Source of the DNA: a virus | Strand: one strand, 5' to 3' | Virus record (IMG/VR): IMGVR_UViG_3300045256_000483 | Span: 1 to 20,622 of that record | Length of the DNA stretch: 20,622 nucleotides | Shown: one piece after another, positions 1,020 through 20,622 of the stretch | Layout: each line of letters begins with the position of its first letter | Position numbering within the stretch: position 1 is the stretch's first letter | Made by a program: the position numbers and the translations under genes | Notes under the pieces: generated by a model | What the model saw: the letters and a program-made list of their open reading frames with translations, nothing else | What the model was told of the DNA's origin: nothing | The model's database searches: none

Positions 1020-1196
1020 GGGTTGCAGGCAAAAAGGGGTTGACTCCCTATGGGGCACGGGGGCTGCTTGTGTGGGGTGTTGCTATAAACACCAAATTTA
1101 AATTAAACAAACCCTCCCCTAAAGCAAAATCCCCTTTATTTTCAACATTTACATAAACACTACCCTACGGATTCTATAAAAAATAATTAATAGTTT

Positions 1197-1225
1197 TTGT
1201 AATTTTCATAAAAAAATGTTATAAT
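1197..1225 (+). promoter_or_regulatory. Rightward extended -10 promoter (copy 1)
   Basis: TTGTAA, a 17-nt spacer, then TATAAT preceded by TGT (an extended -10 element). The block AAAAAAATGTTATAAT is shared with the promoters at 2584 and 10636. The predicted start is near 1232, which leaves a leader of only about 12 nt carrying AAGGAG before the ATG at 1244. Confidence 0.8.
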
Positions 1226-1243
1226 ATACATAAAAGGAGCTTT

Positions 1244-1813
1244 ATGAAAAGTAATTTTGATATAACACCATCTAAAACTGCTAATGTATTGATAGAAAAG
1301 GAGATACGAGAAATTACAGGAGAGACATATGAAACCATTGCCCTGAAGTATGGGACCAGTGTTTCCTATGTAAAAAATGCAAATTATAAAAATATGAACC
1401 CAGAAGCCAGAAAAATTTATCGGAAAAAGAAAGAGAAACTCAAGGAAATAGCTTTAGATACAACAGTTACAGCTCTTGAGCGAGGCAAAACTTTAATTGA
1501 AGAGGCGGATCATCCAAAATATTTAAGTGGAATTGCTGCTATGGGAAAGCTTTCAGATACAATTTATCGTCTGGAAGAAAAATCTCCAACTTCAATTATT
1601 TCAACAAATAGCACAGAAACATATGCGGTGGAATTTTTCCAGTTACTTTTGCAGGAATATTCCTTTGGAGAAGCCTTAGAAGCCTTCCGTGAAGCGGATC
1701 TTAAACCCATTCTTACCCGTGAACAGCAGAAATTAATTGCGGAAAAAATAGAAAAAGGTGAGTTAAACGTGCTGGAAACTGAGGAAGAAACAGATTATTC
1801 AACTAAGGAGTAG
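1244..1813 (+). CDS. Helix-turn-helix protein, candidate small terminase subunit
   Basis: This 189-residue, mostly helical, charged protein has a helix-turn-helix-like segment at about residues 28-48 (TYETIALKYGTSVSYVKNA), followed by a Lys/Glu-rich helix and further helices, ending in an acidic tail. Small terminase subunits typically combine an N-terminal DNA-binding HTH with a helical oligomerisation region and are about this long. No other gene here fits that role, although large terminase is 4.3 kb away and small terminases are usually adjacent. The alternative is a transcription regulator acting on the divergent region upstream. The start is well supported by AAGGAG 4 nt before the ATG and by the promoter at 1197-1225. 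No helix or motif distinguishes the two roles. Confidence 0.7.
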   Translation: MKSNFDITPSKTANVLIEKEIREITGETYETIALKYGTSVSYVKNANYKNMNPEARKIYRKKKEKLKEIALDTTVTALERGKTLIEEADHPKYLSGIAAMGKLSDTIYRLEEKSPTSIISTNSTETYAVEFFQLLLQEYSFGEALEAFREADLKPILTREQQKLIAEKIEKGELNVLETEEETDYSTKE

Positions 1814-1918
1814 TAGTATAAGTTCCCCATAAACTTTAATATAATTCTTTTAGTGGTATTCAACTGAACAAAAAATTCCCCGTGAAAAATAACCTATCAT
1901 AATTTATTTAATAGATTT

Positions 1919-1978
1919 TAAATTAAAAGACCTCCCGCTGCGGCTTTGGTTTGTGGGGACCACGCCGCAGCGGGAGGT
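1919..1978 (-). terminator. Long GC hairpin with U-rich tail, leftward
   Basis: A perfect 15-bp stem (1930-1944 with 1964-1978, core CCTCCCGCTGCGGC) encloses a 19-nt loop that itself holds GTGG-GGA-CCAC. On the minus strand it is followed by TCTTTTAATTT, giving a plausible intrinsic terminator. On the plus strand no T-run follows, so leftward use is favoured. It is one of the most GC-rich elements in the window outside the left-end array. Confidence 0.6.
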
Positions 1979-2035
1979 TAGTTACAAAAGAACACTGAAT
2001 TTAAATTTTTAATTCAGCGGATCACTTAATTCAAC

Positions 2036-2063
2036 ATTCTATATTCTATATTCTATATTTTAT
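2036..2063. repeat. Heptamer repeat array 1 (ATTCTAT)
   Basis: Four units of 7 bp: ATTCTAT three times, then ATTTTAT, with a trailing ATTC. It is the same family as the arrays at 2519, 3268 and 4760 and lies in the same orientation as the 2519 array. Confidence 0.85.
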
Positions 2064-2168
2064 ATTCAATCTCCGCCGTCCAAAAATAAGTGAACGACTG
2101 TTCAGTATAATCATCTGAAAATTGCTTGGAAATCAGATATACTGTTAACCCCCTGCTGTTAATAACAT

Positions 2169-2197
2169 ATTATAATACATTTTTTTAACTTTGTCAA
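2169..2197 (-). promoter_or_regulatory. Consensus leftward promoter
   Basis: On the minus strand TTGACA, a 17-nt spacer and TATAAT give a full sigma70 consensus match in both boxes. The spacer contains an AAAAAAATGTAT block like that of the rightward promoters. No protein gene lies within 1.1 kb downstream on this strand, so its target is probably the small RNA at 1919-2162. Confidence 0.75.
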
Positions 2198-2320
2198 GTC
2201 ATTTTTTTAGCCTCTGTAACTCATTGATTTTAAAGAATTTACAGTCTCACTTTTTTTCATCAAAAAATCCAGACAACTTGTGCCCTTTTCATTTCATTTT
2301 TCACTCCAAAAATGACAGAA

Positions 2321-2360
2321 AATATCCAAAAAAATGGATAAAAATCCAAAAAAATGGATA
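2321..2360. repeat. Tandem 20-bp hairpin iteron, two copies
   Basis: Two adjacent 20-bp units (2321-2340 and 2341-2360) are identical at 19 of 20 positions. Each contains ATCCA-A6-TGGAT, an inverted repeat separated by an A6 loop. They could be paired binding sites or origin iterons. Confidence 0.7.
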
Positions 2361-2447
2361 AATTCCCCTAAAAATAGCCAAAATTAAGGATTTTTCCCAA
2401 TTTTACAGGCTAAAATACCTGTGGAGTGTTGTGTAGAGGCTATACTT

Positions 2448-2469
2448 GAACAACTTTAATAACTTGTTC
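2448..2469. promoter_or_regulatory. Imperfect 22-bp palindrome
   Basis: GAACAA-C-TT-TAAT-AA-C-TTGTTC is symmetrical apart from a central four bases and one mismatch pair. It lies about 115 bp upstream of the promoter at 2584-2612, so it could be an operator or an origin element. No terminator-like T-run follows. Confidence 0.4.
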
Positions 2470-2518
2470 TTCAGAAAATCCTTAACTCCATCCCTAAATT
2501 CTATATTCCCCACCATTT

Positions 2519-2574
2519 ATTCTATATTCTGTATTCTTTATTCATCATTTATCATTTCTCATTCATCATTTTTT
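2519..2574. repeat. Heptamer repeat array 2 (ATTCTAT/ATTCATC type)
   Basis: Eight 7-bp units read ATTCTAT, ATTCTGT, ATTCTTT, ATTCATC, ATTTATC, ATTTCTC, ATTCATC, ATTTTTT. It is the reverse complement in type and order of the array at 3268-3330. A partial copy (ATTCTATATTC) lies just upstream at about 2498. It abuts the promoter at 2584. Confidence 0.85.
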
Positions 2575-2583
2575 ATTTGTTTA

Positions 2584-2612
2584 TTGACTTATCTATAAAA
2601 AAATGTTATAAT
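2584..2612 (+). promoter_or_regulatory. Rightward extended -10 promoter (copy 2)
   Basis: TTGACT, a 17-nt spacer, then TATAAT preceded by TGT. It shares TTATTGACTT and the block AAAAAAATGTTATAAT with copies at 1197 and 10636. It probably drives the lysis, packaging and portal genes from 2677 onward. The predicted start is near 2619. A small inverted repeat, CAATT-AAG-AATTG, lies just after the -10 box. Confidence 0.85.
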
Positions 2613-2676
2613 TCAATTAAGAATTGGTAAATAAAAACAATTTTTTCTTAAAAACCCAAATAAAATCAATAAAACA

Positions 2677-3276
2677 ATGGAAAGTTTATTTTTTATACTT
2701 TTAGCAGTATGGATATTTCTGAAAATTTATGACTTTAAATTCTCCCGCGAATTCATTTTGTATGATTTTAGGGAAGGAAATAAATTTTTCAGAAATAAAC
2801 TAGGATTCCTGGATTTTAAAAAAGCTCTTATTGTCCAATTACTTTTATCAGGAATGTTCTTTGGATTTTATTGGATGGTCCCAAAGTATGCCTTCATATC
2901 TTTGATTCCAGGAATAGGAATAGGATTTTATTTATTCTTTGATCATATAAAAGGAAGAAAAAAACGAAGGGAACTTCAGAAAAGTATATTAAAACAAATA
3001 AGAGAATTGCCAAAAGATCAATATCAAATCCCACAAAATAATCCAAATATACGAATACAACTTTATGAAGGTAAGACACTTGTTTGGCTTAATTATTTCC
3101 GACATATATATTTACTCAGTCATATATATCCTCAAAATTTTGAACATTATGATTACTTTTATAAGATCTTATTTGATGAGTTAAGACGAATTTCAAATCT
3201 TCCTGAAAATAAATGGTTTCCAAAATATAGTAAATATGAAAATAAACCGTTGAAGGAAATAACAAATATAGAATAA
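2677..3276 (+). CDS. Membrane protein of unknown function
   Basis: This 199-residue protein has a hydrophobic N-terminal helix (about residues 3-17) and two adjacent membrane helices (about 49-69 and 71-90). A basic stretch (GRKKRRE) follows, then a soluble C-terminal domain of about 100 residues rich in aromatic residues. It is the first gene after the promoter at 2584. No Shine-Dalgarno site precedes the ATG; the leader is A-rich. The helices and the place next to lysozyme could suggest a lysis role such as a holin or lysis regulator, but the large soluble tail is unusual for a holin and no family is recognised. Its 3' end runs into heptamer array 3. Confidence 0.75.
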   Translation: MESLFFILLAVWIFLKIYDFKFSREFILYDFREGNKFFRNKLGFLDFKKALIVQLLLSGMFFGFYWMVPKYAFISLIPGIGIGFYLFFDHIKGRKKRRELQKSILKQIRELPKDQYQIPQNNPNIRIQLYEGKTLVWLNYFRHIYLLSHIYPQNFEHYDYFYKILFDELRRISNLPENKWFPKYSKYENKPLKEITNIE

Positions 3277-3330
3277 AGAATATAGAATATAGAATGAGAA
3301 ATGATGAATGATGAAGGATGAATGATGAAA
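3268..3330. repeat. Heptamer repeat array 3, holds the lysozyme start
   Basis: Nine 7-bp units read ATAGAAT, AAAGAAT, ATAGAAT, ATAGAAT, GAGAAAT, GATGAAT, GATGAAG, GATGAAT, GATGAAA. These are the reverse complements of the units in array 2, in mirrored order. The array begins inside the last codons of the membrane-protein gene and ends inside the first codons of the lysozyme gene, supplying its ATGATGAAA start. Confidence 0.88.
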
Positions 3331-4761: not shown

Positions 4762-4801
4762 TGAATGAGAAATGATGAATGAGAAATGATGAATAAGGAA
4801 T
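4760..4801. repeat. Heptamer repeat array 4, holds the next gene's start
   Basis: Six 7-bp units read GATGAAT, GAGAAAT, GATGAAT, GAGAAAT, GATGAAT, AAGGAAT, a 14-bp double period. It is in the same orientation as array 3. It spans the stop of the spanin-like gene and the start at 4786, and offers several ATG and TGA triplets in close succession. Confidence 0.88.
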
Positions 4802-5160
4802 ATAAAAATAAAATACTTCTTAAAATTTTCTTTATCTTATTCAATGTTACGTTTATTATAATTTTTATATTAAACGCTCCGTTGAATATAAAGGCACAGG
4901 AAACTGTATCATTACCGAAAGAATATTATGAGTCTTCAATAAAAGCTTTTACAGAAGTAAAAATCTCCCGTGAACAAATTAAACTTCTTGAAGAACAAGT
5001 GGATTTGTTAAAGGAATTTATACAGAAACAAGAGCAAGTAATTAAAACTATGGAGGATACAATTAAATTCCAGGATAACAAAATCAACGAATTAATTAAA
5101 TTAAAATGCGACAAAACAAGTTATCTATTTGGAATAGTAAAGAAAACGAAATGCAGATAG
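4786..5160 (+). CDS. Exported or anchored coiled-coil protein in the lysis cluster
   Basis: This 124-residue protein has a basic N-terminus and a hydrophobic segment at about residues 11-30, followed by NAPLNIKAQET, which could be a signal-peptidase site after IKA. A coiled coil spans about 55-105 (EQIKLLEEQVDLLKEFIQKQ). There are two Cys near the C-terminus (C108, C123). No lipobox cysteine is visible after the hydrophobic part, so it does not look like a classical outer spanin lipoprotein. A second spanin component or a periplasmic structural protein are possible. The ATG lies in heptamer array 4 with no strong ribosome site. Its end overlaps the holin-like gene by 10 nt if that starts at 5151. 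Confidence 0.65.
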   Translation: MMNKEYKNKILLKIFFILFNVTFIIIFILNAPLNIKAQETVSLPKEYYESSIKAFTEVKISREQIKLLEEQVDLLKEFIQKQEQVIKTMEDTIKFQDNKINELIKLKCDKTSYLFGIVKKTKCR

Positions 5161-6075: not shown

Positions 6076-6082
6076 TTATTCT

Positions 6083-7798
6083 ATGCCTATTTCAAAAGAC
6101 AGATTATTTGCTTTATCAAGAAGCTTTGTAGCAGATAAAATTGCTGAAGGGGCTAGAATATCAGAAACTTACATTAAGTTTAAACCTCATTATAAACAGG
6201 AAATATTTCTAAATCTTGATGAAGATCCAACATTTACAAATCAGGAAATAATTGAATGCCTGTATGGTGGAGCAGCTGGCGGTGCTAAGACAGTAGCATT
6301 GTTAATGGCAGCTCTGAAGTATGTTCATATAAAAGATTATTCAGCACTCCTTCTAAGAAAGAATTATCCGGACCTGGTTCAGGAAGGTGGTTTGATGTCT
6401 CTTGCATTTAAGTGGCTGTCAGACACAGATGCTAAGTGGAATGGAGATTATAAAACCTGGACATTTCCAAGCGGAGCAACACTAAGATTTGGACATCTTT
6501 CTTCAGAGATTGATAAATATAATTATCAGGGTGGTGAGTATCAGTTTGTTGGATTTGATGAATTAACCCAGTTTACTGAAAGCCAATATCTATATCTATT
6601 CTCCCGTGTCCGTAGAAAGAAAAATTTGAATGTTCCTTTGAGAATTTATAGTGCATCCAATCCAGGAGGCTCTGGTGGTAAGTGGGTATATGAAAGATTT
6701 ATTCCAGAAGATTTCACACCAGATAAAGTAAAAGATCAGAATATATTTTTAAAAACTCATGGTAACTTTACCAGGATATTTATTCCAGCTGTTTTAGATG
6801 ATAATCCTTACATTGATAAGGAAAGTTACTATATGGCATTAAGCCAACTCGATGATGTTACAAGAATGCAATATCTTCGGGGAGACTGGAATATTCAGGC
6901 ACGGGGGGATATTCTCTATACCTACAGCGATCTTCATTGTGTTATCAGCTGGAGTCAGTTTAAAAGAGTTTTTGGTTTATCTGAAAATAAAATTCCATCT
7001 CATTGGAAAGTAGGAGTTTTCCAGGACTTCGGAACAAATAAAGATCACCCCTGCGTTACTAGCTGGTTTGCAACTGCAGCAGAAAATTCCCCAACAGTTA
7101 ATGGAGTAGATTTAAAAGGAACAGTTTATTTATATCGTGGATTAATGATATATCCGGCAATAGCTTCAGAAGTAGGAAAGAAAATAAAACAGATAATGGG
7201 TCCAGAAATTGGACAGGCTTCAATTTGGCAGATGTCTCACGAAGCCGCAGCAGCCCGTGAAGAATATAGGAAATATCATAATCTTCCATTTAGTTCCTGG
7301 AAAGCCGGAAGAACAAATGGGATAGAACAATTGAAAGATGCTTTTATGCTGCGGGATAAAGATAAGCCGCATCCATTTAAGTCAGGACTTTATGGACATC
7401 CAAAATTATTTTTAATAGTAGATGACAATGAATTAGTTACTCCTAAGACAGATGCCGGATTAGCAAGATGGAGAGAAGAGATTGTTGCATATCATTGGAA
7501 CATACCAAAATCAGGCAATCCTTCAATGAAATTAATTCCATATGCATTATTTAATGATGCTGTTGATACAATGCGATATGCAGCTGCTGTTTATTTTCCA
7601 ACTGTAACTCCTAAAACTATTGAAGAACTTGTTAAAGAAAAAGTAGATAAAGAGTTCCCCGTGAACAAACTTATTGCAGTTCAGGATGATAATTATAAAT
7701 CCCATCTGTTTACAATGAGAAATATTTTTCAGGAAAAGGTAAAAGAAGAGTTAGAGGAGAATAATAAGATATGTCCGGATTGGATGAATATAGGGTAG
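6083..7798 (+). CDS. terL: Terminase large subunit
   Basis: This 571-residue packaging motor drives DNA into the prohead through the portal and cuts the concatemer. The ATPase domain has Walker A GGAAGGAKT (62-70), Walker B FVGFDE with D159/E160, and coupling motif SASN (190-193) followed by PGGSGGKW. The nuclease domain has D315 in GVFQDFG and D492/D495 in FNDAVDTMRYA. The middle acidic site is less clear; the segment IWQMSHEAAA (381-390) lacks the common DPS-type aspartate, so E387 may serve. The length is normal. The ATG at 6083 lies 7 bp after the exonuclease stop with a weak ribosome site. The C-terminus overlaps a tiny ORF by 28 nt. Confidence 0.97.
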   Translation: MPISKDRLFALSRSFVADKIAEGARISETYIKFKPHYKQEIFLNLDEDPTFTNQEIIECLYGGAAGGAKTVALLMAALKYVHIKDYSALLLRKNYPDLVQEGGLMSLAFKWLSDTDAKWNGDYKTWTFPSGATLRFGHLSSEIDKYNYQGGEYQFVGFDELTQFTESQYLYLFSRVRRKKNLNVPLRIYSASNPGGSGGKWVYERFIPEDFTPDKVKDQNIFLKTHGNFTRIFIPAVLDDNPYIDKESYYMALSQLDDVTRMQYLRGDWNIQARGDILYTYSDLHCVISWSQFKRVFGLSENKIPSHWKVGVFQDFGTNKDHPCVTSWFATAAENSPTVNGVDLKGTVYLYRGLMIYPAIASEVGKKIKQIMGPEIGQASIWQMSHEAAAAREEYRKYHNLPFSSWKAGRTNGIEQLKDAFMLRDKDKPHPFKSGLYGHPKLFLIVDDNELVTPKTDAGLARWREEIVAYHWNIPKSGNPSMKLIPYALFNDAVDTMRYAAAVYFPTVTPKTIEELVKEKVDKEFPVNKLIAVQDDNYKSHLFTMRNIFQEKVKEELEENNKICPDWMNIG

Positions 7799-7989: not shown

Positions 7990-8212
7990 ATTGATTATTA
8001 AACTGATTGATTCATTAATTTACAAAAGGAGACACTCTCTTTTAGGAGATAATAATTTAAATATTGAAGAACAGGTTCAGGAATTTGTTAAAAGTAAAAA
8101 TAAAAGTGAAGAAGTAGATTCCTATCTTCAGGCTGTAGAAGATGCTAAAGAGAATGCTGAAAAAGAGGTAAAAAGATTGAATGGATACGATGTTATCGCC
8201 GACACCGAATAA
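7904..8212 (+). CDS. Small coiled-coil protein between terL and portal
   Basis: This is 102 residues from ATG 7904. The ATG at 7916 (MIITTRKILYDEIERL) is an equally likely start, giving 98 residues. A strong coiled coil (YDEIERLQKELKEKNELIIK) is followed by charged helices (NIEEQVQEFVKSKNKSEEVD and AVEDAKENAEKEVKRL). It lies in a different frame from the previous ORF, overlapping it by about 75-86 nt, and overlaps the portal start by 32 nt. No known family is recognised. The position between large terminase and portal suits a small packaging or assembly accessory protein, but this is not shown. Confidence 0.6.
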   Translation: MWILMIITTRKILYDEIERLQKELKEKNELIIKLIDSLIYKRRHSLLGDNNLNIEEQVQEFVKSKNKSEEVDSYLQAVEDAKENAEKEVKRLNGYDVIADTE

Positions 8213-10619
8213 ACTTACTTTAGATAAATTCCTTCTTAATTATTTAAATGGAATTAATCAACAAGTTGAATCCTCTGAATCTAAATCACGTTATGAAACT
8301 ATTATTCAAATGTGCAGAAGATACAGAGGAATGACTCCTTCTGATTTATTCGGTTTTTGGCACAATGGAGTCTGGGCAGAATCTCCAAAATTTGCAAATC
8401 TTCACGGGACAAATATTTTCCAGGCACTTATTAATGGGGCTTATGCTGCATTTCTTCAGGCAGAATTATCATTAGAGATAACAGCAAAGTCAGATAACTT
8501 TGAAGCCCGTGCAATGGAAAAGATTTGTCGTGGGATTTATGAAGTATTAAACAGGAAGTGGGAATCTTTTGAATCTGATATTTTCTTTGGAATGATCCTT
8601 AAATTAAATGCATTCTGCATTTCAGTTTATGATCAGTCAGATCCAAGCCATAAAATATATCTTCCAATATTTGAAACAGAGGAAGTAGAAGTTCCTGCTG
8701 AAATGGTATGTAAAGATTGTGGATATGTTTTTCAAAAGCAGGAATCTCCGGAAATGGAGATGACTGACATTCCAAAAATAAATGCAGCACATCCGCTGGA
8801 TGAAGAAGAGGCTTCTGAGCTTGAAGGTAATCCAGAAATGATGGAAGAAAACTCAGAAACCTGTCCAGAATGCGGAAGCCCAAATGTAGAACAGTCATTA
8901 GAACCAGGACTAATAGAAATTCAGAAAGTTGTTGGACAGAAAGAAATTAAAATAGGCTCTATAAAAACAATTATTGCAGATGCTTTAGATGTAAGTGTTG
9001 ATGATTTGTCTGGGACCAGTGATTTGGATTCAGCTTCTTGGATTCAATGGAGGTATCTGGTATCAAAAGGCAAGCTTCAATCTCTTTTCCCACATTTGAA
9101 ACTAGATAAGTTTTCCTTGTGGTCATATCCTACCAGACTTAAAATGGCTTACAAAAAGGGAGGGACTTATGGTTCTTATCCTTCAAATTCAATGGAGAGA
9201 AATCTCTATGAAGTAAAACATAATTGGGTAGAAAGATATGAATACCACGATTACATAAGCCCAACTGATTTTAAAGTTGGAGACTTTGAAATTAAAGCTG
9301 GTCAAAGTCTTGCAGAAGTTTGTCCCGAAGGTCTTGTTTTTCTGACAGTTGGAAATGAAATTATTTATATAGGAAATGAGGACAAAAAGAAGGTAATTAA
9401 AACTGCAAGGTGGATTCCTGATGCCAATAGTATTTATGGATTAGGGGCACGGGCTGGTTTGGCTATTCAAAAGAAGATAAATCAAATAGATAACATTGTA
9501 ATGGAAGGAGAATCACGAAGTTTGCGTGGTTCAGTAATTTATGCTCCGGAAGCAATTGATGGAGCTTTCCTTGAAGGAGCTAATACAAATATTCCTTTGA
9601 AACCAGACTTTGCTTTGGGAGGAAATAGAGTAAGTGATTTTGTCTTCCCCATTGAAGTAAAAGGATTAAATGGAGCTTCACTGGCCTTTCTCCAATCTCA
9701 AGTAGGAACAATGCAGAAGATTATGGGTATTCCAGATGTTCTTCTTGGAGCTGGAGATAGGAATGTTGATACCGCACGGGGACAGATGCTTGTTGCTGAC
9801 AGGGCAAGCGGTTTGATGATTCCTCCTAAGAAAAGTGAAGGATATATGAAAATAGGCTGGCTGAAAGACCAGCTTAGACTGATTCAAAAATACTATACTC
9901 CCGAAATTATACGGAAATTTTCAGGGATGTATGATGATAGCTGGCTTGATGATGAGATTGAATCCTTCTTAAAGAATGATATTGATGAATATATTGATAT
10001 TGAAATTGTAGAAGGAACAGAAATTCCAGAAAGTAAGGCTATGAGACAATCCAGATTACGGCAAGATATTGCTGCTGGATTTGTTCAGCTTACTCCAAAG
10101 GTTCGGTATAAACTTCTTAGACAGTCTGGTCTGACTGATTTTGATTATCAGGATTACCAGATGAATATTAAATTAGCAAATAAAAGACTTCAAGTTATTA
10201 AAGAATTGTCTGAAAATGAAGAGGCAGTTAAAAGTTATATACAAGGAGAAGAAGCTTTGTTTGATCCAGAAACTGGAGAAAGATTAACAAATGAACAGGG
10301 AATTCCAATAACCAATCCCGTGTTAATGTCTATACTGGAAATGCCATTAATGAAAATAAATGAGGATGCTGAAGATCACGACATTATGATTTCATTCTGG
10401 GCAGAAAAGTATAGAAGTTACAAAGCTTCAGTAAGAGAATATCCCAAAATGCTGTTGGATTTTTGTGAGATGATGATTGGAGCACACAAAGCAGCGGCTG
10501 CTCAGGCAATGATGAAAGTTCAGGGAGTAATGCAAATGCAGCAAGCTTTAGGTATGGCAACTCAAGCAGCGGCTGCAAATATGCAAAATGAACAAGCCCA
10601 ACCTCCTCAAGAACAATAG
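8181..10619 (+). CDS. Portal protein with inserted zinc ribbon
   Basis: This 812-residue protein would form the dodecameric ring at the capsid vertex through which DNA enters. The call rests on size, on position between large terminase and scaffold/coat, and on portal-like content: a helical N-terminal wing, a central region (YAPEAIDGAFLEGANTNIPL through MQKIMGIPDVLLGAGDRNVD), and a long helical C-terminal part ending in an Ala/Gln/Met-rich tail that could form a barrel helix. P22-type podoviral portals have similar large size and C-terminal helices. An insertion at about residues 165-245 carries C177-x2-C180 and C228-x2-C231, a zinc-ribbon pattern, separated by an acidic linker. AGAGG lies 12 nt before the chosen ATG; M4 (8190) is a less likely start. 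Confidence 0.85.
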   Translation: MDTMLSPTPNKLTLDKFLLNYLNGINQQVESSESKSRYETIIQMCRRYRGMTPSDLFGFWHNGVWAESPKFANLHGTNIFQALINGAYAAFLQAELSLEITAKSDNFEARAMEKICRGIYEVLNRKWESFESDIFFGMILKLNAFCISVYDQSDPSHKIYLPIFETEEVEVPAEMVCKDCGYVFQKQESPEMEMTDIPKINAAHPLDEEEASELEGNPEMMEENSETCPECGSPNVEQSLEPGLIEIQKVVGQKEIKIGSIKTIIADALDVSVDDLSGTSDLDSASWIQWRYLVSKGKLQSLFPHLKLDKFSLWSYPTRLKMAYKKGGTYGSYPSNSMERNLYEVKHNWVERYEYHDYISPTDFKVGDFEIKAGQSLAEVCPEGLVFLTVGNEIIYIGNEDKKKVIKTARWIPDANSIYGLGARAGLAIQKKINQIDNIVMEGESRSLRGSVIYAPEAIDGAFLEGANTNIPLKPDFALGGNRVSDFVFPIEVKGLNGASLAFLQSQVGTMQKIMGIPDVLLGAGDRNVDTARGQMLVADRASGLMIPPKKSEGYMKIGWLKDQLRLIQKYYTPEIIRKFSGMYDDSWLDDEIESFLKNDIDEYIDIEIVEGTEIPESKAMRQSRLRQDIAAGFVQLTPKVRYKLLRQSGLTDFDYQDYQMNIKLANKRLQVIKELSENEEAVKSYIQGEEALFDPETGERLTNEQGIPITNPVLMSILEMPLMKINEDAEDHDIMISFWAEKYRSYKASVREYPKMLLDFCEMMIGAHKAAAAQAMMKVQGVMQMQQALGMATQAAAANMQNEQAQPPQEQ

Positions 10620-10635
10620 AAATAAATAATACTTA

Positions 10636-10664
10636 TTGACTTTTTTATAATAAAATGTTATAAT
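10636..10664 (+). promoter_or_regulatory. Rightward extended -10 promoter (copy 3)
   Basis: TTGACT, a 17-nt spacer, then TATAAT preceded by TGT. The shared block AAAATGTTATAATT matches the promoters at 1197 and 2584. It lies just after the portal stop and would give extra transcription of the scaffold, coat and tail genes. The predicted start is near 10671. Confidence 0.85.
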
Positions 10665-10684
10665 TAAAAGCAAAGTAGAAAATC

Positions 10685-10731: not shown

Positions 10732-10758
10732 CTGCTTGCTATTCACACTCTAAATAAT

Positions 10759-12171
10759 ATGGATAATCTAGAACAAACGATGGGAACTGAAGGTGGTCTG
10801 CCTGCTTCAGAACCTGCTCCCAGTAATACTGGCGTAACGGCAGAACAAAAACCAACATTAAAAGATATTGCAAATTCTTTTAGAGTTGGTGAAACCAAAG
10901 AAAATTCCGCTGTTTCATTACTGGACCAAGAAGCTCCAGAACAAAATATGGGACAGGGGGATTTAAATCCTGAAGCCAATTTTACAGATGTTCCTGATCC
11001 TGAAACTCTTTCAGAAAGTGAGATTGAACGTCTCATTGCTGATCCAAACAGCCCTAAGTGGTATAGGAAACAGCTTGAAAGATTTCAGAAATATATCGGG
11101 AGGCTTAAAAGTGAGGTAGAAGAATTAAAAACAAAAACTTCTAATCCACTTCAAATGCAGTCCGAACAGGAATCTGTAAAGCAAATTGATCCGGAAATAG
11201 AGCTTCTATCCACAATGAAGGATAAACTTATGAAGCTCTCTTCGGTTGTAGCCTCTCCGGAGGAAGTTGTAGGAGCACTGGAAGAAATAATTCCTCCATC
11301 CAAGATAAATGAAATTAAAAATCATATTGCTTGGGAATTCCTGGAACTTCCGGACGGACGACCTAATCTTGACAGCATTCAGGTAATTATAGACAGAATC
11401 GCTGGTTCAGGAGAAGGCGGACAAAAGGTAAATGCCCGTGATGTTTTGAATGCTATTGAAGCTTTGAAACGCGGGGTTGTTACTCCTGAAATGTTTTTGG
11501 AATTCTCTTCCGATGCTGAGTATGAATCTTATAAAAAGATGGAGCAACTCCGCAAGGAAATGGAGCAGCAATACAATGAAGTAAAAGCTGCAAAGGAATT
11601 TCAGGAAAAACAAACAAGAGTAACTCTTCTACAGCCTGTAGTGGATAAGGTAAAAGAAGACGTTAGCACTCGAATCAATACACTGCTAACGAAGTATAAT
11701 TTGAATGAATCCCAGCAAGATCCAGAACCAATCAGCAAGTATAAAGCTTCTATGATTGAGAGGATCGGGGAATTTGTTAACAAGTATGCTGAACAAAATC
11801 CATATCTTGCTGATGTATTTAGATCTATAGATCTTCTTACAAATCCAAGAGGCTTTGATGTGGATAAAATTAGAAAGGAAATTGAAAGTTTCACAAATTC
11901 CTATAATTACAAAGCTGCTGTTAACAGAGGTCTTTCAGATTTAACGAGGGAACTTGAGAGGATTATTGCAGATGAAAGTAACCGATTCAAGATATTTGTA
12001 AGAGGTTATGAATATGAATTTAAGAATACTTCAACTGCTCCAAATCTTCAAAAAGGAACTCCGGCAACGACCACATATTCAAAAGAAGAGTTAGATAAAA
12101 TGAACTCTTCTGATAGAAGAAGGCTGATTTATCAATCAGTATCAGAAAAATTAAGACAACAATTAAAATAG
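10759..12171 (+). CDS. Candidate scaffolding protein
   Basis: This is a 470-residue, acidic, helix-rich protein. Residues 1-90 are Pro/Glu/Ser-rich and probably disordered. A coiled-coil stretch (PKWYRKQLERFQKYIGRLKSEVEELKTK, shown here in outline by its Leu/Lys spacing) follows near 95-125. Another Gln/Glu-rich helix (MEQLRKEMEQQYNEVKAAKE) lies near 255-290, and the C-terminus is basic and helical (RRRLIYQSVSEKLRQQLK). A disordered N-terminus, a helical body and a basic C-terminal helix are typical of phage scaffolds. The location between portal and coat is the usual scaffold place. There is no protease motif. The leader has the pseudoknot but no visible ribosome site, and no earlier in-frame ATG, GTG or TTG exists. 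Confidence 0.72.
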   Translation: MDNLEQTMGTEGGLPASEPAPSNTGVTAEQKPTLKDIANSFRVGETKENSAVSLLDQEAPEQNMGQGDLNPEANFTDVPDPETLSESEIERLIADPNSPKWYRKQLERFQKYIGRLKSEVEELKTKTSNPLQMQSEQESVKQIDPEIELLSTMKDKLMKLSSVVASPEEVVGALEEIIPPSKINEIKNHIAWEFLELPDGRPNLDSIQVIIDRIAGSGEGGQKVNARDVLNAIEALKRGVVTPEMFLEFSSDAEYESYKKMEQLRKEMEQQYNEVKAAKEFQEKQTRVTLLQPVVDKVKEDVSTRINTLLTKYNLNESQQDPEPISKYKASMIERIGEFVNKYAEQNPYLADVFRSIDLLTNPRGFDVDKIRKEIESFTNSYNYKAAVNRGLSDLTRELERIIADESNRFKIFVRGYEYEFKNTSTAPNLQKGTPATTTYSKEELDKMNSSDRRRLIYQSVSEKLRQQLK

Positions 12172-12194
12172 ATTATTTGGAGGAATAACAAGCA

Positions 12195-13499
12195 ATGCCT
12201 TTTGACTTATCACAAATGAGTCAACTTCTTGACCCAGTTTGGGAAGCTACTATTCAGGAGACTGACGAATTCTCAGCCAGCTTTTGGAATCGTCTGCAAT
12301 CTCTTCCTGAAGAGGATTCCAATGCTGTAGGACGTAAAATTAAAGTTAGGACAGGATATAATGAATCAGAGTCCTATGCCCCGTTTAGTTCTACCTCTGG
12401 TTATGCTCAAGGAGGAAACTCAACATTCACGACTTTTCTAGTTCCTTATAGGACAGTTTCAACTCAGGGTGAAATTGATCAGGAAGCTATTGACAATGAT
12501 GATGGTAGTGCATATTACCATCCCGTTGTAGATGAAATGGCTGCTACCATTATGGCAGGTTTTAAGAAAATTAACCGTGCCTGTTTGATGGGAGACGGAA
12601 CGGGAGCTATTGCCGTTCTTACCGCCAACTACAACGGCGGCACACCTACGGTTCTTACAACCGCTCCTTCTGCTACTGTTTTTGGTAATAAGGGAGCTCA
12701 GTTTGTAAAAGTAGGAAAGAAAATACAAGTTTACAACAGCACTGGCACAACACTAAGAAACGGAACAATTGGCGGTGAGGGTATTCTCACTGTTTCATCC
12801 GTTGTAAAAAGCACCGGTGTTATTACTTTTACTTCTAATGCTCCGTCAGATGCGGTTGTTGGAGATATTATTGTTCCTGAACGTTCAGCTTCTAGGGGTA
12901 TTCACGGTCTGCCTTATTGGGTAGATGACTCTGGCTCAATCTTCGGCGTGTCAAGGACATCTAATCCTGGACTGAAATCTGTTAAGGTAGATGGTTCTTC
13001 TGGCTCGATTTTGGTTGCCGTAGAAACAATGTTTTCAACTATGGCTCACTATATCGAGGAAGATGTGGCTCTTTCACTTAACGGACAGGGAATGCACGAA
13101 TTCTTCTGGTCTCCAACTCAAAGGGAAGCTTATCGCAAGCAGGCTCTTGGATTGGGTATGACAATGCTTGGTAGTGAAAAAATTGATACGGGCTATGCTC
13201 ACAACGAACAAATCAATGGGTATAGTTTCACAGTAACTAAGGATCACGACAATACTAAGATTCACGCTCTCAAGATGTCTGACTGGTATAGGGTAACCAG
13301 AGGAACGGGTAATAATCCTTTCCGAGAAGTTCAGATTCACGGAAGCAAATTCTACAACAAATCTGATGCTCAAGGTAGGATTAGTGGTGGTCTTGGCTTT
13401 GTTCTTGCTGGATACTGCAACATCGCTTGCCGAAATGTCCGCAACCAAGCCGTGATTTATAACCTGCCTGTCGCTGGATACGCAACGGGTAATGTCTAA
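12195..13499 (+). CDS. Major capsid protein
   Basis: This 434-residue coat protein is expected to be of the HK97 fold. The N-terminal region (QLLDPVWEATIQETDEF) is followed by a beta-strand-rich extended part (GRKIKVRTGYNESESYAPF), a helical spine (YYHPVVDEMAATIMAGFKKI), and a beta-rich insertion at about residues 140-230 (VGKKIQVYNSTGTTLRNG to VVGDIIVPERSASRG), comparable in position to extra domains of P22-like coats. The C-terminal half contains GLGFVLAGYCNIACRN. It has a near-perfect ribosome site, GGAGGA, 10 nt before the ATG. Its base composition is noticeably richer in GC than its neighbours and it uses more C-ending codons, as expected for the most highly expressed gene. A stable hairpin follows its stop. 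Confidence 0.9.
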   Translation: MPFDLSQMSQLLDPVWEATIQETDEFSASFWNRLQSLPEEDSNAVGRKIKVRTGYNESESYAPFSSTSGYAQGGNSTFTTFLVPYRTVSTQGEIDQEAIDNDDGSAYYHPVVDEMAATIMAGFKKINRACLMGDGTGAIAVLTANYNGGTPTVLTTAPSATVFGNKGAQFVKVGKKIQVYNSTGTTLRNGTIGGEGILTVSSVVKSTGVITFTSNAPSDAVVGDIIVPERSASRGIHGLPYWVDDSGSIFGVSRTSNPGLKSVKVDGSSGSILVAVETMFSTMAHYIEEDVALSLNGQGMHEFFWSPTQREAYRKQALGLGMTMLGSEKIDTGYAHNEQINGYSFTVTKDHDNTKIHALKMSDWYRVTRGTGNNPFREVQIHGSKFYNKSDAQGRISGGLGFVLAGYCNIACRNVRNQAVIYNLPVAGYATGNV

Positions 13500-13509
13500 T
13501 AATTAGATA

Positions 13510-13533: not shown

Positions 13534-13548
13534 ATATAGAGGAGAACT

Positions 13549-13887: not shown

Positions 13888-14684
13888 TGGAAAAAATAGC
13901 AGGAATTCCAAAAGACAAATTTTATTTTGAACTTCCTCCAAAACCAGATTGGTTTGAGGAAGAACTGAAATCAATTGGTAATATTAACGGGAAACCTTTA
14001 TTCAGAGTAGTAGATGGTCAAAGAGAACAGGTATTTAGATGCGGGAAATTTCGTGTAAAACATCTACTCACTAATAATGGTTTCCCTTGTTTTATTCCGG
14101 TAGTAGATACTTATTATTTCAAGAAATATAAAAATTCAAATGAAATAAAACGATACCCCTCCCGTGAAGAAGCAATAAAAGATAAGAATGAAGAGTTAGA
14201 AGACGAGGTGGAATTTACATCTAATGTTGAAGTTCGTCAAATAGGACGACCTTGCTGGGTAATTGAAACATACATAAGTCCTACAGAAATTAATGAAGAA
14301 GTTTGGAATAACAATAGATTTCAGTTTTTGAAAAAGAATGGTATAGATCAGTTGATAGATGTTTTAGGAGAATTTCCAAGAGATGGAATGTATGTTTATT
14401 GTTTTTCAATTGTAGATGAAAACGGAAATGCAAGATCTCCAGGACAGGCTGATATTGAAGAATGTAGAAAAAGATTACAGCTTTCCCAATTAGATAAAAA
14501 ATCTTTAGAGCAAAGAATTAAAGAATTTCATCAAAGGGAGAGGGAATTTGAAGAAAAGCAGATACAAAGAATTTCAGATAATGTAGTTCAATTTTTTGGA
14601 TTATCTTATAAGAAATTCTTTAATGCAGAAATAAGTAAACCAATAGGAAAAATATATGAGGGGTCTAGCAGTAGTAGGGACTGA
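13887..14684 (+). CDS. Unknown head-region protein with C-terminal coiled coil
   Basis: This 265-residue protein has an N-terminal part with PKPDWFEEELKSIG, followed by RVVDGQREQVFRCGKFRVKH. I have a general impression of similar KPDWFEEEL plus VV.GQ patterns in uncharacterised virion-module proteins of environmental phages. The middle is mixed alpha/beta with aromatic residues (GRPCWVIETYISP). Residues 192-238 form a highly charged coiled coil (KSLEQRIKEFHQREREFEEK). Start and upstream stop overlap by 1 nt (TAATG). It ends 29 nt into the next gene. The function is unknown; the conserved-looking place after the coat suggests a head assembly or internal protein. Confidence 0.7.
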   Translation: MEKIAGIPKDKFYFELPPKPDWFEEELKSIGNINGKPLFRVVDGQREQVFRCGKFRVKHLLTNNGFPCFIPVVDTYYFKKYKNSNEIKRYPSREEAIKDKNEELEDEVEFTSNVEVRQIGRPCWVIETYISPTEINEEVWNNNRFQFLKKNGIDQLIDVLGEFPRDGMYVYCFSIVDENGNARSPGQADIEECRKRLQLSQLDKKSLEQRIKEFHQREREFEEKQIQRISDNVVQFFGLSYKKFFNAEISKPIGKIYEGSSSSRD

Positions 14685-15546: not shown

Positions 15547-15568
15547 TTTTAGATACCATTAATTTAAA

Positions 15569-16333
15569 ATGGCTACTTTAATTAATTATATTTCACAAGT
15601 AATGATGGAATTTGGCGGTATTATACCGTCAAATTTACTTTCTTACCACGACGTGGCGAGGGAATTCCTAAGTGTGTATTCACTAGAAATGCAAAAACTA
15701 GGAATTTCCTCAACTAATATAACAGTTAAATATAGTGATGTTAATTTAACCACCCGTGAATTTACTGTAACATCTATTCCTGGAGTTACAGGTGATTTCA
15801 TTCCAGCTTTTGTTGAATTTAATGAAAAAAATACTACAACTCCGAAAAAGGTTGAGATAGTTCCACTTAGTATATTACCAACATATGAAGGAGCTAGAGC
15901 AATCAGCTTCTTTGATACTCCTCTTAAAGCACGGACTGCTTGGGATTATTGGAAAAATGGAACACTTAGGATTTACTATGACCCTATTCCAAAATTAGAA
16001 ACAATAAATTATGGTGATGGAATAGTATTTCCTCCAAATTTTAATGTTTATTTGGTAAAGAAAACAGCATTTTTCTTAATAAAAGTAATCAGGATAAAAA
16101 CAATGACATACCAACCAGATTATCCTGGTTTTAGTCTGGAAGGTTTTATCAATGCTTTAAATATGTTTGAGCAGACTCTTGGTCTTCAGCTGCAGGAATG
16201 GCAGGAAGAGTTTAGAAAATTTAAGAACATTGATAGGAATTTCCAGCCAAGACTTAGAAGGTCTTGGGATGAAATACATCTTCTTGATTATGATAATGTA
16301 ACGGGAAATATTCCAACTGAGAAAGAGCCGTAA
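15569..16333 (+). CDS. Candidate head-tail connector or adaptor protein
   Basis: This 254-residue protein starts with a helical region (LINYISQVMMEFGGIIPSNL), then beta-strand segments with a TREFTVTSIPG turn, a region GTLRIYYDPIPKLETINYGD, helices (NVYLVKKTAFFLIKVIRIKT), and a charged helical end (LQEWQEEFRKFKNIDRNFQP). Adaptor proteins of podoviruses (gp4/gp11-like) share a helical N-terminus, a beta domain with a YDPIP/YYP-like loop, and later helices, so this is a reasonable but unproven call. The ATG has no nearby ribosome site; a GAGGAA stretch lies about 25 nt upstream. The stop overlaps the next start by 1 nt. Confidence 0.55.
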   Translation: MATLINYISQVMMEFGGIIPSNLLSYHDVAREFLSVYSLEMQKLGISSTNITVKYSDVNLTTREFTVTSIPGVTGDFIPAFVEFNEKNTTTPKKVEIVPLSILPTYEGARAISFFDTPLKARTAWDYWKNGTLRIYYDPIPKLETINYGDGIVFPPNFNVYLVKKTAFFLIKVIRIKTMTYQPDYPGFSLEGFINALNMFEQTLGLQLQEWQEEFRKFKNIDRNFQPRLRRSWDEIHLLDYDNVTGNIPTEKEP

Positions 16334-16926: not shown

Positions 16927-17597
16927 TGGCTAATGCAAATATAGACAAAGTAACAGCCCGTGTCCTGTGGATTTTAGGAGGTCAGTCAGGAACATTTAAT
17001 ACCACTGTTTCTGATGATAGATTTATTCTTGAAGAAATTCAAAGATCTATTATTGAAACAGAAGAACAATTAGTAAGAACAATCTGTTCATACGGACATC
17101 CTGAAAGGATGCCTTTTGTAACATTTTCATTGATCGGATATGCAGCAACACTTCCTAAAAGAATTGGAGAAATAGTTTCTGTTAGATGTTTAGCTTCTGA
17201 TAATACAGAAAAAGAAGCTGAATATACATCAAGAACTAACATAGAAAATTGGAGATCAAATCCAAATAATATTTATTCATTACTTCCACATACAGATAAA
17301 AATTCTATTCTTTTTGGGTATTTTAATATTACTAATGACATTATTTATTATACAGGATCTAATGCAAAAGTTTTTTATTGTCAATACACACCAAATTATG
17401 CTACTCCGGCATTAAGTATTTCAGATTATTTTGAAGATGCTTTAGTATGTGGAACAATAACAAGATTGTTTAAAGATGGAGTTCCAGTAGAAATTGTTCA
17501 AGTTCATTCTCAAATCTATGCAAATATTTTAGAGGATATAAAAGCAACTGGAATAAATAAAATAGATGATGTTACTGAAAGGTCTGTGAGAAACTAG
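16926..17597 (+). CDS. Candidate head-tail adaptor (P22 gp4 / T7 gp11-like)
   Basis: This 223-residue protein has an N-terminal helical part (DRFILEEIQRSIIETEEQLV), a beta domain beginning with PERMPFVTFSLIGYAATLPK, then a loop and strand (NIIYYTGSNAKVFYCQYTPN, outlined), and a C-terminal helical part typical of connector proteins (YFEDALVCGTITRLFKDGVP, then helices). This order of helices, a beta domain with a Tyr/Pro strand and a helical D-x-x-E-ALV-G end is seen in podoviral adaptors that bind beneath the portal. It is linked to its upstream neighbour by a 1-nt overlap, and two genes further on lies the nozzle. Exact relation to gp4 or gp11 cannot be settled by eye. Confidence 0.58.
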   Translation: MANANIDKVTARVLWILGGQSGTFNTTVSDDRFILEEIQRSIIETEEQLVRTICSYGHPERMPFVTFSLIGYAATLPKRIGEIVSVRCLASDNTEKEAEYTSRTNIENWRSNPNNIYSLLPHTDKNSILFGYFNITNDIIYYTGSNAKVFYCQYTPNYATPALSISDYFEDALVCGTITRLFKDGVPVEIVQVHSQIYANILEDIKATGINKIDDVTERSVRN

Positions 17598-17598
17598 T

Positions 17599-17823
17599 AT
17601 GCCTTATGAAATTATTTTTTCTTCTGGTAAGTGGAGAATTTATAAAAAGGGTGGCGGGCTAGCAAAGAATAAAAGTGGAACTCCGCTTGATGGTGGAGGA
17701 CATAAAACAAAAGCAGAAGCAGTAAGACAATTGAGGGCTTTATATGCAAATGAAACAAGAGACAGTCTCCAAGCCAAAGATTCTTACAAGGGAAGAAGTA
17801 GAAAAAATCTTAAACCTAAATGA
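17599..17823 (+). CDS. Small phage protein with HKTKAEAVRQLRALYANE motif
   Basis: This is a 74-residue basic protein. Residues 1-30 read EIIFSSGKWRIYKKGGGLAK, and then a Gly-rich turn leads to HKTKAEAVRQLRALYANE, a short helical motif I recognise in several phage small proteins and in N-terminal parts of capsid-region proteins. The basic tail is shared in DNA with the next gene, overlapping it by 80 nt in another frame. The start follows the previous stop by 1 nt. Its function is unknown; a small virion or assembly protein is likely from context. Confidence 0.6.
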   Translation: MPYEIIFSSGKWRIYKKGGGLAKNKSGTPLDGGGHKTKAEAVRQLRALYANETRDSLQAKDSYKGRSRKNLKPK

Positions 17824-18226
17824 TTCAGAAATTAAAGAGCTTCAAGAAGAACAAGAAAAAATAAAACAAAAAGTTTTCAAAAGACTTTCAAAAGAAGAAG
17901 AGATCATTAATCGTAATATGTTAATGATTGAACATTATAAAATTTCTGAAAATAATGAAGGTCTGGCAGAAAGCCTTTTTAATATAGGGGATTTTGATAG
18001 TGCAATAAAAATTACTCAAGACGAAGACAGGAAAGAGTTTTATCAAAAAATTAAAACAGCTTCGGAAAAATCAGAATGTAAATGTGATAAATTTTCTGAT
18101 ATAAACGGAGATTTAATCCCAAATAAATTTCTTTATTTAGAAACTGTAAAAGATAAAAAGTTACTTAGAATCTTTAGGTGTAACATTTGCGGAGAGTTAT
18201 TTAATGAGGCAAGAGCTTCTATATGA
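17744..18226 (+). CDS. Coiled-coil protein with C-terminal zinc-ribbon-like cysteines
   Basis: This is a 160-residue protein; the ATG at 17750 (MKQETV) is an alternative start. A long charged helix (residues 18-60, IKELQEEQEKIKQKVFKRLS) precedes a helical middle with a TPR-like feel (GLAESLFNIGDFDSAIKITQ). The C-terminus has C112-x-C114 and C146-x2-C149 (KCD, CNICGELF), consistent with a metal-binding ribbon, although the first pair is C-x-C. It overlaps the small KTKAEA-motif gene by 80 nt and the nozzle gene by 23 nt. No family is recognised. It is the third Cys4 protein in the window, with the portal and the exonuclease. Confidence 0.62.
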   Translation: MQMKQETVSKPKILTREEVEKILNLNDSEIKELQEEQEKIKQKVFKRLSKEEEIINRNMLMIEHYKISENNEGLAESLFNIGDFDSAIKITQDEDRKEFYQKIKTASEKSECKCDKFSDINGDLIPNKFLYLETVKDKKLLRIFRCNICGELFNEARASI

Positions 18227-20003
18227 ATTTAATTTTGATGGTGGATTCTATGACACTGGATTTGCTCATTCACCAGAGAATACTCTTGCTCCAGGATCTT
18301 CCAATGTAGCAATTATTGGAGGGAATAATATCCATATTTATGGAGGATCTTTTAAACAGACTGGAACAGGAGCAAGATATTTATTTAATCTGGCTGGAGG
18401 ATTAGGAGGTCTTGCAGATTACTCCACAGTTACAGCCTCAGGCTCTTTATTTAATTTTATAAATGAATCCCTTCTGGTTGTTGGGAGTGGTAAAGTCGTT
18501 TATAAAGGGAACATACTAACTAATACTGTTCCTCCCTTTGGAGATGTTACAGCTTCCAGCATTCTTCAAATAGCTCCAAAATCAACAGGATACACTTATC
18601 CAAAATGGTATGTTGCAGGATTTACGCAGCCAGCAGCTCCAACAATTTTTTCAGAAAATCCTGTTCCACCAAATCAGGGACTTCTTGATGGGCTTTATTC
18701 TTTCAAGATTGCTGCAGTAAGAAGTTCTACTGGTGCACGCTCGATTGCATCCCCAGCATCAGCTCCTCTGATGTTTAAGAATCAAACTGCAATAATTTCT
18801 TTCCCACTTCCCCCAACAAACGGAGCTGACAGATGGGCTATATTTGGAACAAAGGCAGGATTTGGAGCAACTGGAGCTCATTTCCTTGTTAAAGAAATAA
18901 ATGAAACAGATCTAGCAACAATCAACTCAATCCCCCGTGCGTATAGAATAGAATATAATGATTCCGACCTTTTACCTATTTTGGCTTATATTGATGATTA
19001 TCCTCCGCAAGCTGCTAAATTTGCTGCACGTCTGGAGAACTATGTAATTTTGGTTGGAGTATATGACAACGGAATTCAGGCTAGTATCAGAAATTTTCCG
19101 GAAAGTTTTCATCCAGAACATTTAGCATTTTTGCCTAAAACTCCAACAGCAATTCTTCCAGAGCCTCAGGGGTCTTTCCTTTATGTTGCAACAGACTCCA
19201 GTGTTCATACAGTATCATTAGCTCCAAATTCAGATAATCCATTAATTCTTAGAACAATATGGTCTGATACCGGAGTTTTAAATAACTCTAATTGGTGTAG
19301 TGCTAACGGAGTTTTATTTGCCTATACATCAAATAGAGGAGCTGTAACAATGGGAGAAAACGGACTTCCGGATAATTCATTTGCAAATGCTGTTGCACAT
19401 TCAATGAAAAACTGGAAGCCTGATAATGTAGTAGTTCACTATATTCCACATTTAAACTCTGTTGCTTATACAAACAAAAAAACATCATACTTATTTAATT
19501 TACATACATTAACCTGGTCTTCTCCATTTAATTTAGAAGAACAAACTTTAAATCTTTTTGATGTTGTAAGCGGAACTGTATTTAATTTTTTACCCTATAT
19601 TTCAGTTAAAGAAATATCATCTGGGAATTTCTATACAGTTCTTTTTGAAAATCCTGAAACAACAACAATTTCCCAAAAAGACGGAGTTTTTCAATCTCCG
19701 GAAATTTTAATTTATCCTCAAGGCAGAGTTAATTGGATGGGAACAAAAATATATCTGCATTCAGATTTTCCAGGTAAAATTATAAATGTAACTTTAAATG
19801 GAAACTTTGGAGAGAAAATAAAAAACTATACCATAACTACCGGAAGTGAAAACGTCATATCTGTTTATTTCAGGCATTTTCTTCCAAGACTGGAAACATT
19901 AAATGTAAAAATAATAATGCCAAAAACAGATTATTCAAAGAGAATGGGTGTAGAGAAAGTTCAAATATTTGGAACAGTAGAGAATAGTAAAAGATTCTTC
20001 TGA
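18204..20003 (+). CDS. Tail nozzle, beta-propeller-like (P22 gp10 / T7 gp12-like)
   Basis: This 599-residue protein is composed almost wholly of beta strands with repeated blade-like segments, for example GSFLYVATDSSVHTVSLAP, GVLFAYTSNRGAVTMGE and NSVAYTNKKTSYLFNLHTLT. The last reads as a classic propeller blade with a strand ending in W (TWSSPF). The N-terminus has DGGFYDTGFAHSPENTLAPG, which resembles the start of P22 gp10-type packaged-DNA stabilisation or nozzle proteins. Such proteins close the tail tube and carry fibres. Size and place after the adaptor-like genes fit. It overlaps the zinc-ribbon gene by 23 nt and the next gene by 1 nt. Confidence 0.8.
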   Translation: MRQELLYEFNFDGGFYDTGFAHSPENTLAPGSSNVAIIGGNNIHIYGGSFKQTGTGARYLFNLAGGLGGLADYSTVTASGSLFNFINESLLVVGSGKVVYKGNILTNTVPPFGDVTASSILQIAPKSTGYTYPKWYVAGFTQPAAPTIFSENPVPPNQGLLDGLYSFKIAAVRSSTGARSIASPASAPLMFKNQTAIISFPLPPTNGADRWAIFGTKAGFGATGAHFLVKEINETDLATINSIPRAYRIEYNDSDLLPILAYIDDYPPQAAKFAARLENYVILVGVYDNGIQASIRNFPESFHPEHLAFLPKTPTAILPEPQGSFLYVATDSSVHTVSLAPNSDNPLILRTIWSDTGVLNNSNWCSANGVLFAYTSNRGAVTMGENGLPDNSFANAVAHSMKNWKPDNVVVHYIPHLNSVAYTNKKTSYLFNLHTLTWSSPFNLEEQTLNLFDVVSGTVFNFLPYISVKEISSGNFYTVLFENPETTTISQKDGVFQSPEILIYPQGRVNWMGTKIYLHSDFPGKIINVTLNGNFGEKIKNYTITTGSENVISVYFRHFLPRLETLNVKIIMPKTDYSKRMGVEKVQIFGTVENSKRFF

Positions 20004-20622
20004 TGAATATATTAGATTTAAATCAATCAGAATTAATTCATCGAATATCTGTATTAGAGAGAACTATTTCAACACTAACAGATGTTCAAAATAGAATTGT
20101 AGATGCTCAAACAGAAGAAGCATCTAAAGCTGAAAGGCAATATATCCATCAAAATTTAATTAGAAATGGTGATTTAAATTTTACCAGAAATACATATCTT
20201 TATACTACTGATTACACGGGAGCGGAAGCTGCTAATGTTTCAGAGGAAGCAGCTTTTGTTTATGGACTTCCAAGAGATGATTCCCGTGAATCTTATGGAA
20301 GTATTAATTCCGGAAATACTACATTAACAATTAATAATGCTTTATTTACGCCTTCCGACGTAGGAAAAAATATAATTATAGAAGGTGCTGGAACTGGCGG
20401 GAGTGTTCATTTTACTAATATTTTTTCCTACATATCTGCAACACAATGTGTAATAGGATCTTCTGCGGCTACTACAGTTACAAATGCACGGGTAAGATGG
20501 GGATTCCCTTCTTATATAGAAGATACAACAGATGATAATCCTGATTCAAATCTTGCTACAAATACAGCATTAAAAACCCCTTCTCACACAAGATATTCAA
20601 CAACAGTAAATGATCCTGATTT
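20003..20622 (+). CDS. Tail fibre or tailspike protein, N-terminal part (cut by window edge)
   Basis: The ATG at 20003 overlaps the nozzle stop (TGATGA). The frame stays open for 206 codons to the window end with no stop. Residues 1-50 form a coiled coil (MNILDLNQSELIHRISVLER), typical of an attachment or trimerisation segment. A beta-rich domain follows with YGLPRDDSRESYG, LFTPSDVGKNIIIEG and a strand YISATQCVIGSS, a pattern common in phage receptor-binding and tailspike proteins (a repeating FT..DVGK..T/I..AG element). It probably continues into a receptor-binding or depolymerase region beyond the window. The gene content of this part of the phage agrees. Confidence 0.8.
   Translation, partial: MNILDLNQSELIHRISVLERTISTLTDVQNRIVDAQTEEASKAERQYIHQNLIRNGDLNFTRNTYLYTTDYTGAEAANVSEEAAFVYGLPRDDSRESYGSINSGNTTLTINNALFTPSDVGKNIIIEGAGTGGSVHFTNIFSYISATQCVIGSSAATTVTNARVRWGFPSYIEDTTDDNPDSNLATNTALKTPSHTRYSTTVNDPD

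Follow-up and report, generated by a model that had tools for sequence, protein, structure and literature searches.

Distribution of CCCGTG in a tailed-phage fragment

The DNA analysed here is IMG/VR virus record IMGVR_UViG_3300045256_000483, positions 1 to 20,622 (this whole stretch is termed the window), which, judged from its recognisable genes for terminase (phrog_979), portal protein (phrog_156), phage lysozyme and exonuclease, is a tailed-phage fragment of 20.6 kb. It holds 21 exact copies of the six-base word CCCGTG or its complement CACGGG, 14 reading as CCCGTG and seven as CACGGG on the plus strand. This corresponds to a density of 1.02 per kb and an excess of ~13-fold over chance (21 versus ~1.6 expected), and the departure from equal orientation is not significant (binomial P 0.19). 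The extended form CCCGTGAA accounts for nine of the copies, at 436 per Mb, and none is directly followed by G. A preliminary description of this sequence had reported the same total and strand split, the nine extended copies and the absence of CCCGTGG, all of which a recount confirmed; its list of start positions was also accurate except for one, given as 1717, which is 1716. The copies lie as follows, with the strand on which CCCGTG is read:

1056..1061, minus: probably non-coding (site 1)
1716..1721, plus: CCCGTGAA (site 2)
1879..1884, plus: CCCGTGAA, intergenic (site 3)
4967..4972, plus: CCCGTGAA (site 4)
6603..6608, plus: terminase gene, S-R-V (site 5)
6900..6905, minus: terminase gene, A-R-G (site 6)
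7254..7259, plus: terminase gene, A-R-E (site 7)
7658..7663, plus: terminase gene, P-V (site 8)
8403..8408, minus: portal gene, H-G (site 9)
8506..8511, plus: portal gene, A-R-A (site 10)
9448..9453, minus: portal gene, A-R-A (site 11)
9775..9780, minus: portal gene, A-R-G (site 12)
10317..10322, plus: portal gene, P-V (site 13)
11435..11440, plus: gene 10759-12171 (site 14)
14161..14166, plus: CCCGTGAA (site 15)
15753..15758, plus: CCCGTGAA (site 16)
16957..16962, plus (site 17)
18934..18939, plus (site 18)
20215..20220, minus: in an open reading frame (ORF) running off the window (site 19)
20283..20288, plus: CCCGTGAA, in the ORF running off the window (site 20)
20487..20492, minus: in the ORF running off the window (site 21)

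Only the copies at 1056 and 1879, the two previously taken as non-coding, probably are so, because those at 20215, 20283 and 20487 lie in the ORF that runs off the window.

The excess is not a product of short-word composition. Markov models of orders 0, 1 and 2 predict 1.9, 1.2 and 1.6 copies and order 3 predicts 5.6. Order 4 gives 12.4, but this value is circular: of the 33 occurrences of CCGTG and the 30 of CCCGT, 21 each belong to the word itself. Dinucleotide shuffles of the window gave a mean of 1.16 copies and a maximum of 4, and the Poisson probability of 21 copies (~1e-16) survives correction for ~2,080 hexamers by far. In a survey of the best 6- to 9-mer in each of 75 sequences, the window ranks second. 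The word is also sharply bounded, with one-mismatch variants at background (45 seen versus 46.1 expected) and flanks that add only a weak preference for A at each of the two bases next to the end of CCCGTG; a longer or degenerate motif was rejected on the basis of these flanks. Spacing of the sites has a coefficient of variation (CV) of 0.89, within the null range of 0.66-1.39, in what is a weak test with only 21 sites.

Selection at the DNA level

Of the 19 copies counted in reading frames, 15 share one phase, as the arginine codon CGT or CGG, a pattern that would suit chance or, in an AT-rich genome, a habit of codon use or of mutation. This possibility was examined by permuting synonymous codons, which keeps the proteins and codon usage of the genes in the window fixed. 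A first gene set contained 16 copies versus 1.7 expected (reached in 0 of 2000 permutations) and a wider set 20 versus 2.0 (0 of 1000). The amino acid sequences allow CCCGTG at 81 distinct places, or slots, 20 of which (25%) are filled, whereas the median for other words of equal composition is 1%. A codon habit was therefore rejected, because synonymous shuffling yields ~2 in-gene copies where 20 are seen, and this class of explanation is very improbable. CCCGTG is an exact hexamer under DNA-level selection in this phage.

The filled slots are unevenly spread among the genes that follow:

6083..7798, plus: terminase large subunit gene (phrog_979, E=2.3e-55), CCCGTG in 4 of 6 slots
8181..10619, plus: portal protein gene (phrog_156, E=4.7e-4, and gene order), CCCGTG in 5 of 5 slots
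12195..13499, plus: probable major capsid gene (named by position only), 43% GC, CCCGTG in 0 of 14 slots

In terminase and portal together CCCGTG occupies nine of 11 slots, compared with 11 of the 70 in the rest of the window (Fisher 3e-5; 4e-4 when permuted within slot types), and the probable capsid gene, for which family searches gave no match, has none of its 14 filled (Fisher 0.017; within slot types 0.07). These regional tests were chosen after seeing the counts, and their values should be discounted accordingly.

Several claims of the preliminary description are upheld here. It had argued that codon habit cannot explain the word, which the permutation (20 versus 2.0) bears out, and had proposed examining synonymous positions and Markov backgrounds, of which the former confirms selection at the DNA level and the latter, at orders 0-3, predicts 1.2-5.6 rather than ~20 copies. 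The absence it had noted from the GC-richer coat gene also holds, with none of the 14 encodable slots of the probable capsid gene in use.

Chi-like and uptake-like interpretations

The same statistics were run on phages and prophages with known words. In the lambdoid phage mEp460, Chi (GCTGGTGG) occurs 20 times genome-wide (16 plus, 4 minus); its right half (22.5 kb) has 18 copies versus 1.5 expected, 16 versus 2.1 under synonymous permutation, and near-misses at 20 versus 25.4. This was a directed count, outside the unsupervised best-word survey. Within that survey, HP1 ranks first of 75, its top word being its host's uptake sequence AAGTGCGGT (14 versus 0.24; 9 plus, 5 minus), Aaphi23 ranks third with the same word (10 versus 0.25; 6 plus, 4 minus), and a Cytobacillus prophage ranks fifth, its top word AGCGGC including AGCGG, which is Chi-like in Bacillus. 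By its numbers (21 versus 1.6, 14 to 7, sharp) the window matches both mEp460 and HP1.

Chi in mEp460 resembles CCCGTG in being exact, non-palindromic and mostly within genes, with near-misses at background, an observed-to-expected ratio of ~12 in the enriched half, and mostly but not wholly one orientation. CCCGTG differs in sequence, in its length of 6 bp and in being less polarised (14:7 versus 16:4). The uptake signal of Pasteurellaceae in HP1 and Aaphi23 is likewise an exact word at ~1 per kb on both strands, and HP1, on which alone the two tests were run, also shows synonymous-site selection and about a quarter of slots filled; unlike this signal, CCCGTG has a core of 6 bp rather than 9, an unrelated sequence and no sign of regular spacing. 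AGCGG is enriched beyond codon expectation in the DNA of two Cytobacillus prophages, as CCCGTG is in the window, but is wholly polarised in both (40:0 in L017; 0:26 in L022, with 26 copies versus 9.7 and an excess of near-misses). A prophage-like region of Oscillospiraceae (L033) carries GGCAGCGG 15 times versus 1.5, all on one strand; this word ends in AGCGG and is a possible Chi-like word of Clostridia. L022 and L033 both encode a terminase related to that of the window. HIP1 (GCGATCGC) of cyanobacteria is a very abundant palindrome dispersed in coding DNA, and shares with the non-palindromic CCCGTG its abundance and dispersal there; within the cyanobacterial phylum, none of the 146 genomes sampled had a density of CCCGTGAA comparable to that of the window. 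In a separate observation, Lactococcus phage sk1 is rich in GACGGA/TCCGTC (18 versus 3.5, strands 15:4) and GGCGA (35 versus 11.5).

The genome also carries strong marks of restriction. CATG (1 versus 66 expected), GTAC (0 versus 26), GGCC (1 versus 25) and GCGC (1 versus 9) are near-absent, in the capsid gene as elsewhere, which suggests that several type II restriction systems have acted on the phage and, because avoidance is almost complete, that its host cuts DNA. CCCGTG might in this setting be a DNA modification or defence site of host or phage (methylation, BREX-like or phosphorothioate), enriched because DNA carrying the mark is better protected, and its exact six-base specificity without near-miss enrichment does resemble that of restriction-modification enzymes acting on a genome that clearly evolved under restriction. 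Such an origin is nevertheless quite unlikely, as restriction targets are avoided, as the four tetramers are here, whereas CCCGTG is enriched; no methyltransferase was recognised in the window, and we know of no phage with tenfold enrichment for a modification site. Slightly less probable again is binding by a phage protein acting as a stoperator-like repressor or in packaging, partition or condensation. The word is densest in packaging genes, and the stoperators of phage L5 are dispersed asymmetric sites bound by the phage repressor. Regulatory sites are, however, relaxed in consensus and mostly intergenic, whereas CCCGTG has near-misses no more often than background, and almost all its copies lie within genes, on both strands.

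The reading favoured here, tentatively, is that CCCGTG is a dispersed, Chi-like site kept by selection and read by a helicase-nuclease of the AddAB/RecBCD type. The reader would be a host enzyme, which would process DNA ends and recognise CCCGTG on the double helix as RecBCD of E. coli recognises Chi. Broken or cut phage DNA would be degraded from its ends unless such a site were met; reading it would halt degradation and turn the DNA to recombination, so that a phage in a DNA-cutting host might benefit from carrying many. Chi words known so far are short and rich in GC, and the longer form of the Lactococcus Chi, GCGCGTG, shares CGTG with CCCGTG. An enzyme of the RecBCD or AddAB type occurs in nearly all bacteria. 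The Chi-like reading is preferred because of this near-universality, because phage Chi enrichment is published and reaches this level in mEp460, and because the packaging genes are the densest region of a genome with strong restriction marks. Chi has been reported to protect restriction-cut DNA and to be over-represented in lambdoid phages, most densely between the replication genes and the packaging site (PMC3784561). CCCGTG is dense in terminase and portal (the nine of 11 slots given above), with the replication region outside the fragment, and its ~1 per kb exceeds the density reported for Chi in those lambdoid phages that lack recombinases (0.2 per kb).

Several observations weigh against a Chi-like role. 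Host Chi is strongly polarised, as are the prophage controls, whereas the strands here stand at 14:7. The 16:4 of mEp460 softens this objection and shows that polarity can be partial in a phage, so that it was dropped as proof against Chi. Many phages whose hosts have a known Chi lack clear enrichment for it (phi11, r1t, sk1, P22, BCJA1c and GBSV1), and its absence in phi11, r1t, P22, BCJA1c and GBSV1 indicates that such enrichment is far from general. The window contains no recognisable recombination gene, and ~880 genome searches identified neither the host nor a bacterial genome enriched in CCCGTG. The word is not among listed Chi words or known uptake sequences. The Lactococcus Chi, for example, is listed as GCGCGT (PMC8022716).

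The main rival, which fits nearly as well, is that CCCGTG (often CCCGTGAA) serves a naturally competent host as its DNA uptake sequence, and that the phage accumulated it through long residence in that host's gene pool, as in Haemophilus phages. Uptake sequences are found at ~1 per kb, show no bias of orientation and have unusually few copies with a single mismatch (PMC1626085), and profiling of uptake signal sequences in phages has found the same accumulation, greater in long-resident genes (PMC6776037). The density in the window, its lack of significant orientation bias and its near-misses without excess agree with these properties, and the fraction of slots filled (25%) is close to that in HP1 (28%) and above the 8-15% of AGCGG-type words. 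That the unsupervised survey returned the known uptake sequence as top word of both HP1 and Aaphi23 also favours an uptake role, which accounts for the missing orientation bias and the slot filling; long residence would account for the differences between genes. On the other side, known cores are 9-10 bp rather than 6 (those with sequences AAGTGCGGT and ACAAGCGGT have 0 copies in the window), and known uptake sequences are spaced more evenly than random, whereas the spacing of CCCGTG is inside the random range. They have, moreover, been reported only from Pasteurellaceae and Neisseriaceae (PMC1626085). On balance an uptake role is unlikely but a serious contender, and marginally less likely is its specific form, in which CCCGTG is the uptake sequence of a lineage outside these two families, seen first through its phage.

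The preliminary interpretation is thus partly supported: the Chi-like site it had listed gains from the same signature in the Chi-rich mEp460, its methylation, packaging and segregation options gained no such support and stay improbable, and an uptake sequence was absent from its candidates. CCCGTG is a real dispersed six-base site at the DNA level and a new word of a known kind; its function we infer as set out above.

Related viruses, host search and other features

Among relatives, the IMG/VR contig L009 matches the window at 99.87% identity across 12.5 kb and retains each of the 14 sites in the shared part, while two distant relatives of 54% GC (L010/L012 and L013) have 3 and 4 copies versus ~3 expected; one of these two aligns with the window over the whole portal at 45% identity. 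Enrichment in relatives, which the preliminary description had set as a check, is thus borne out by the near-identical contig but not by the distant pair, and a family-wide trait was rejected on this ground. The word therefore belongs to this virus lineage, and plausibly also to its host. Viruses sharing a lysozyme with the window (46 loci) showed no enrichment, and a profile search with the terminase large subunit (TerL) returned 21 distant prophage-like loci from many phyla, none with CCCGTG.

Across the ~880 genome searches, which overlap and cover ~750 distinct genomes, CCCGTGAA density peaks near 85 per Mb versus 436 in the window. The sample comprised the cyanobacterial phylum, Bacteroidota, Bacillota, Planctomycetota, the phyla of Dehalococcoidales and Calditrichota bins, together with the 21 genomes that carry a related terminase; it lacks Patescibacteria, and Pseudomonadota beyond one Smithella-type genome, and says little about those. 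Ten of the higher-ranking genomes had CCCGTG at background in the stretches read, a portal profile search of genome contigs gave no match, and a literature search for CCCGTG/CACGGG found no relevant paper among those listed.

Before its own survey of Proteobacteria, one study could count no more than five bacteria with an identified Chi or Chi-like word, namely E. coli, H. influenzae, B. subtilis, L. lactis and S. aureus (PMC8022716). In the present case a 20 kb piece of a metagenomic phage alone yields a candidate host word, in the absence of any host sequence. Since an unsupervised statistic recovers the uptake word of HP1 and Aaphi23 and an AGCGG-containing word in a Cytobacillus prophage, and Chi in mEp460 is recovered by a directed count, it should be possible to mine phage genomes for the words that uncultured hosts use in recombination or uptake, and CCCGTG could help to find the host of this phage.

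The window also contains three similar promoter-like repeats (1194-1229, 2581-2616 and 10633-10668), each with a TTGACT-type box, 17 bases and TATAAT. Eight other viral contigs (8 loci) matching this pattern were not enriched in CCCGTG; two promoter-sharing contigs, L094 and L095, are rich in GTCAATA/TATTGAC (17 versus 1.8 and 16 versus 2.5). A perfect 14-bp inverted repeat, CCTCCCGCTGCGGC, with a 19-base loop lies in intergenic DNA at 1931-1977, and an Rfam search of the window, this repeat included, gave no match. The left end (1-183) is a GC-rich tandem array with a 17-base unit, TGATTCGGCTCGGGCTT, of which L009 has a longer and differently arranged version.

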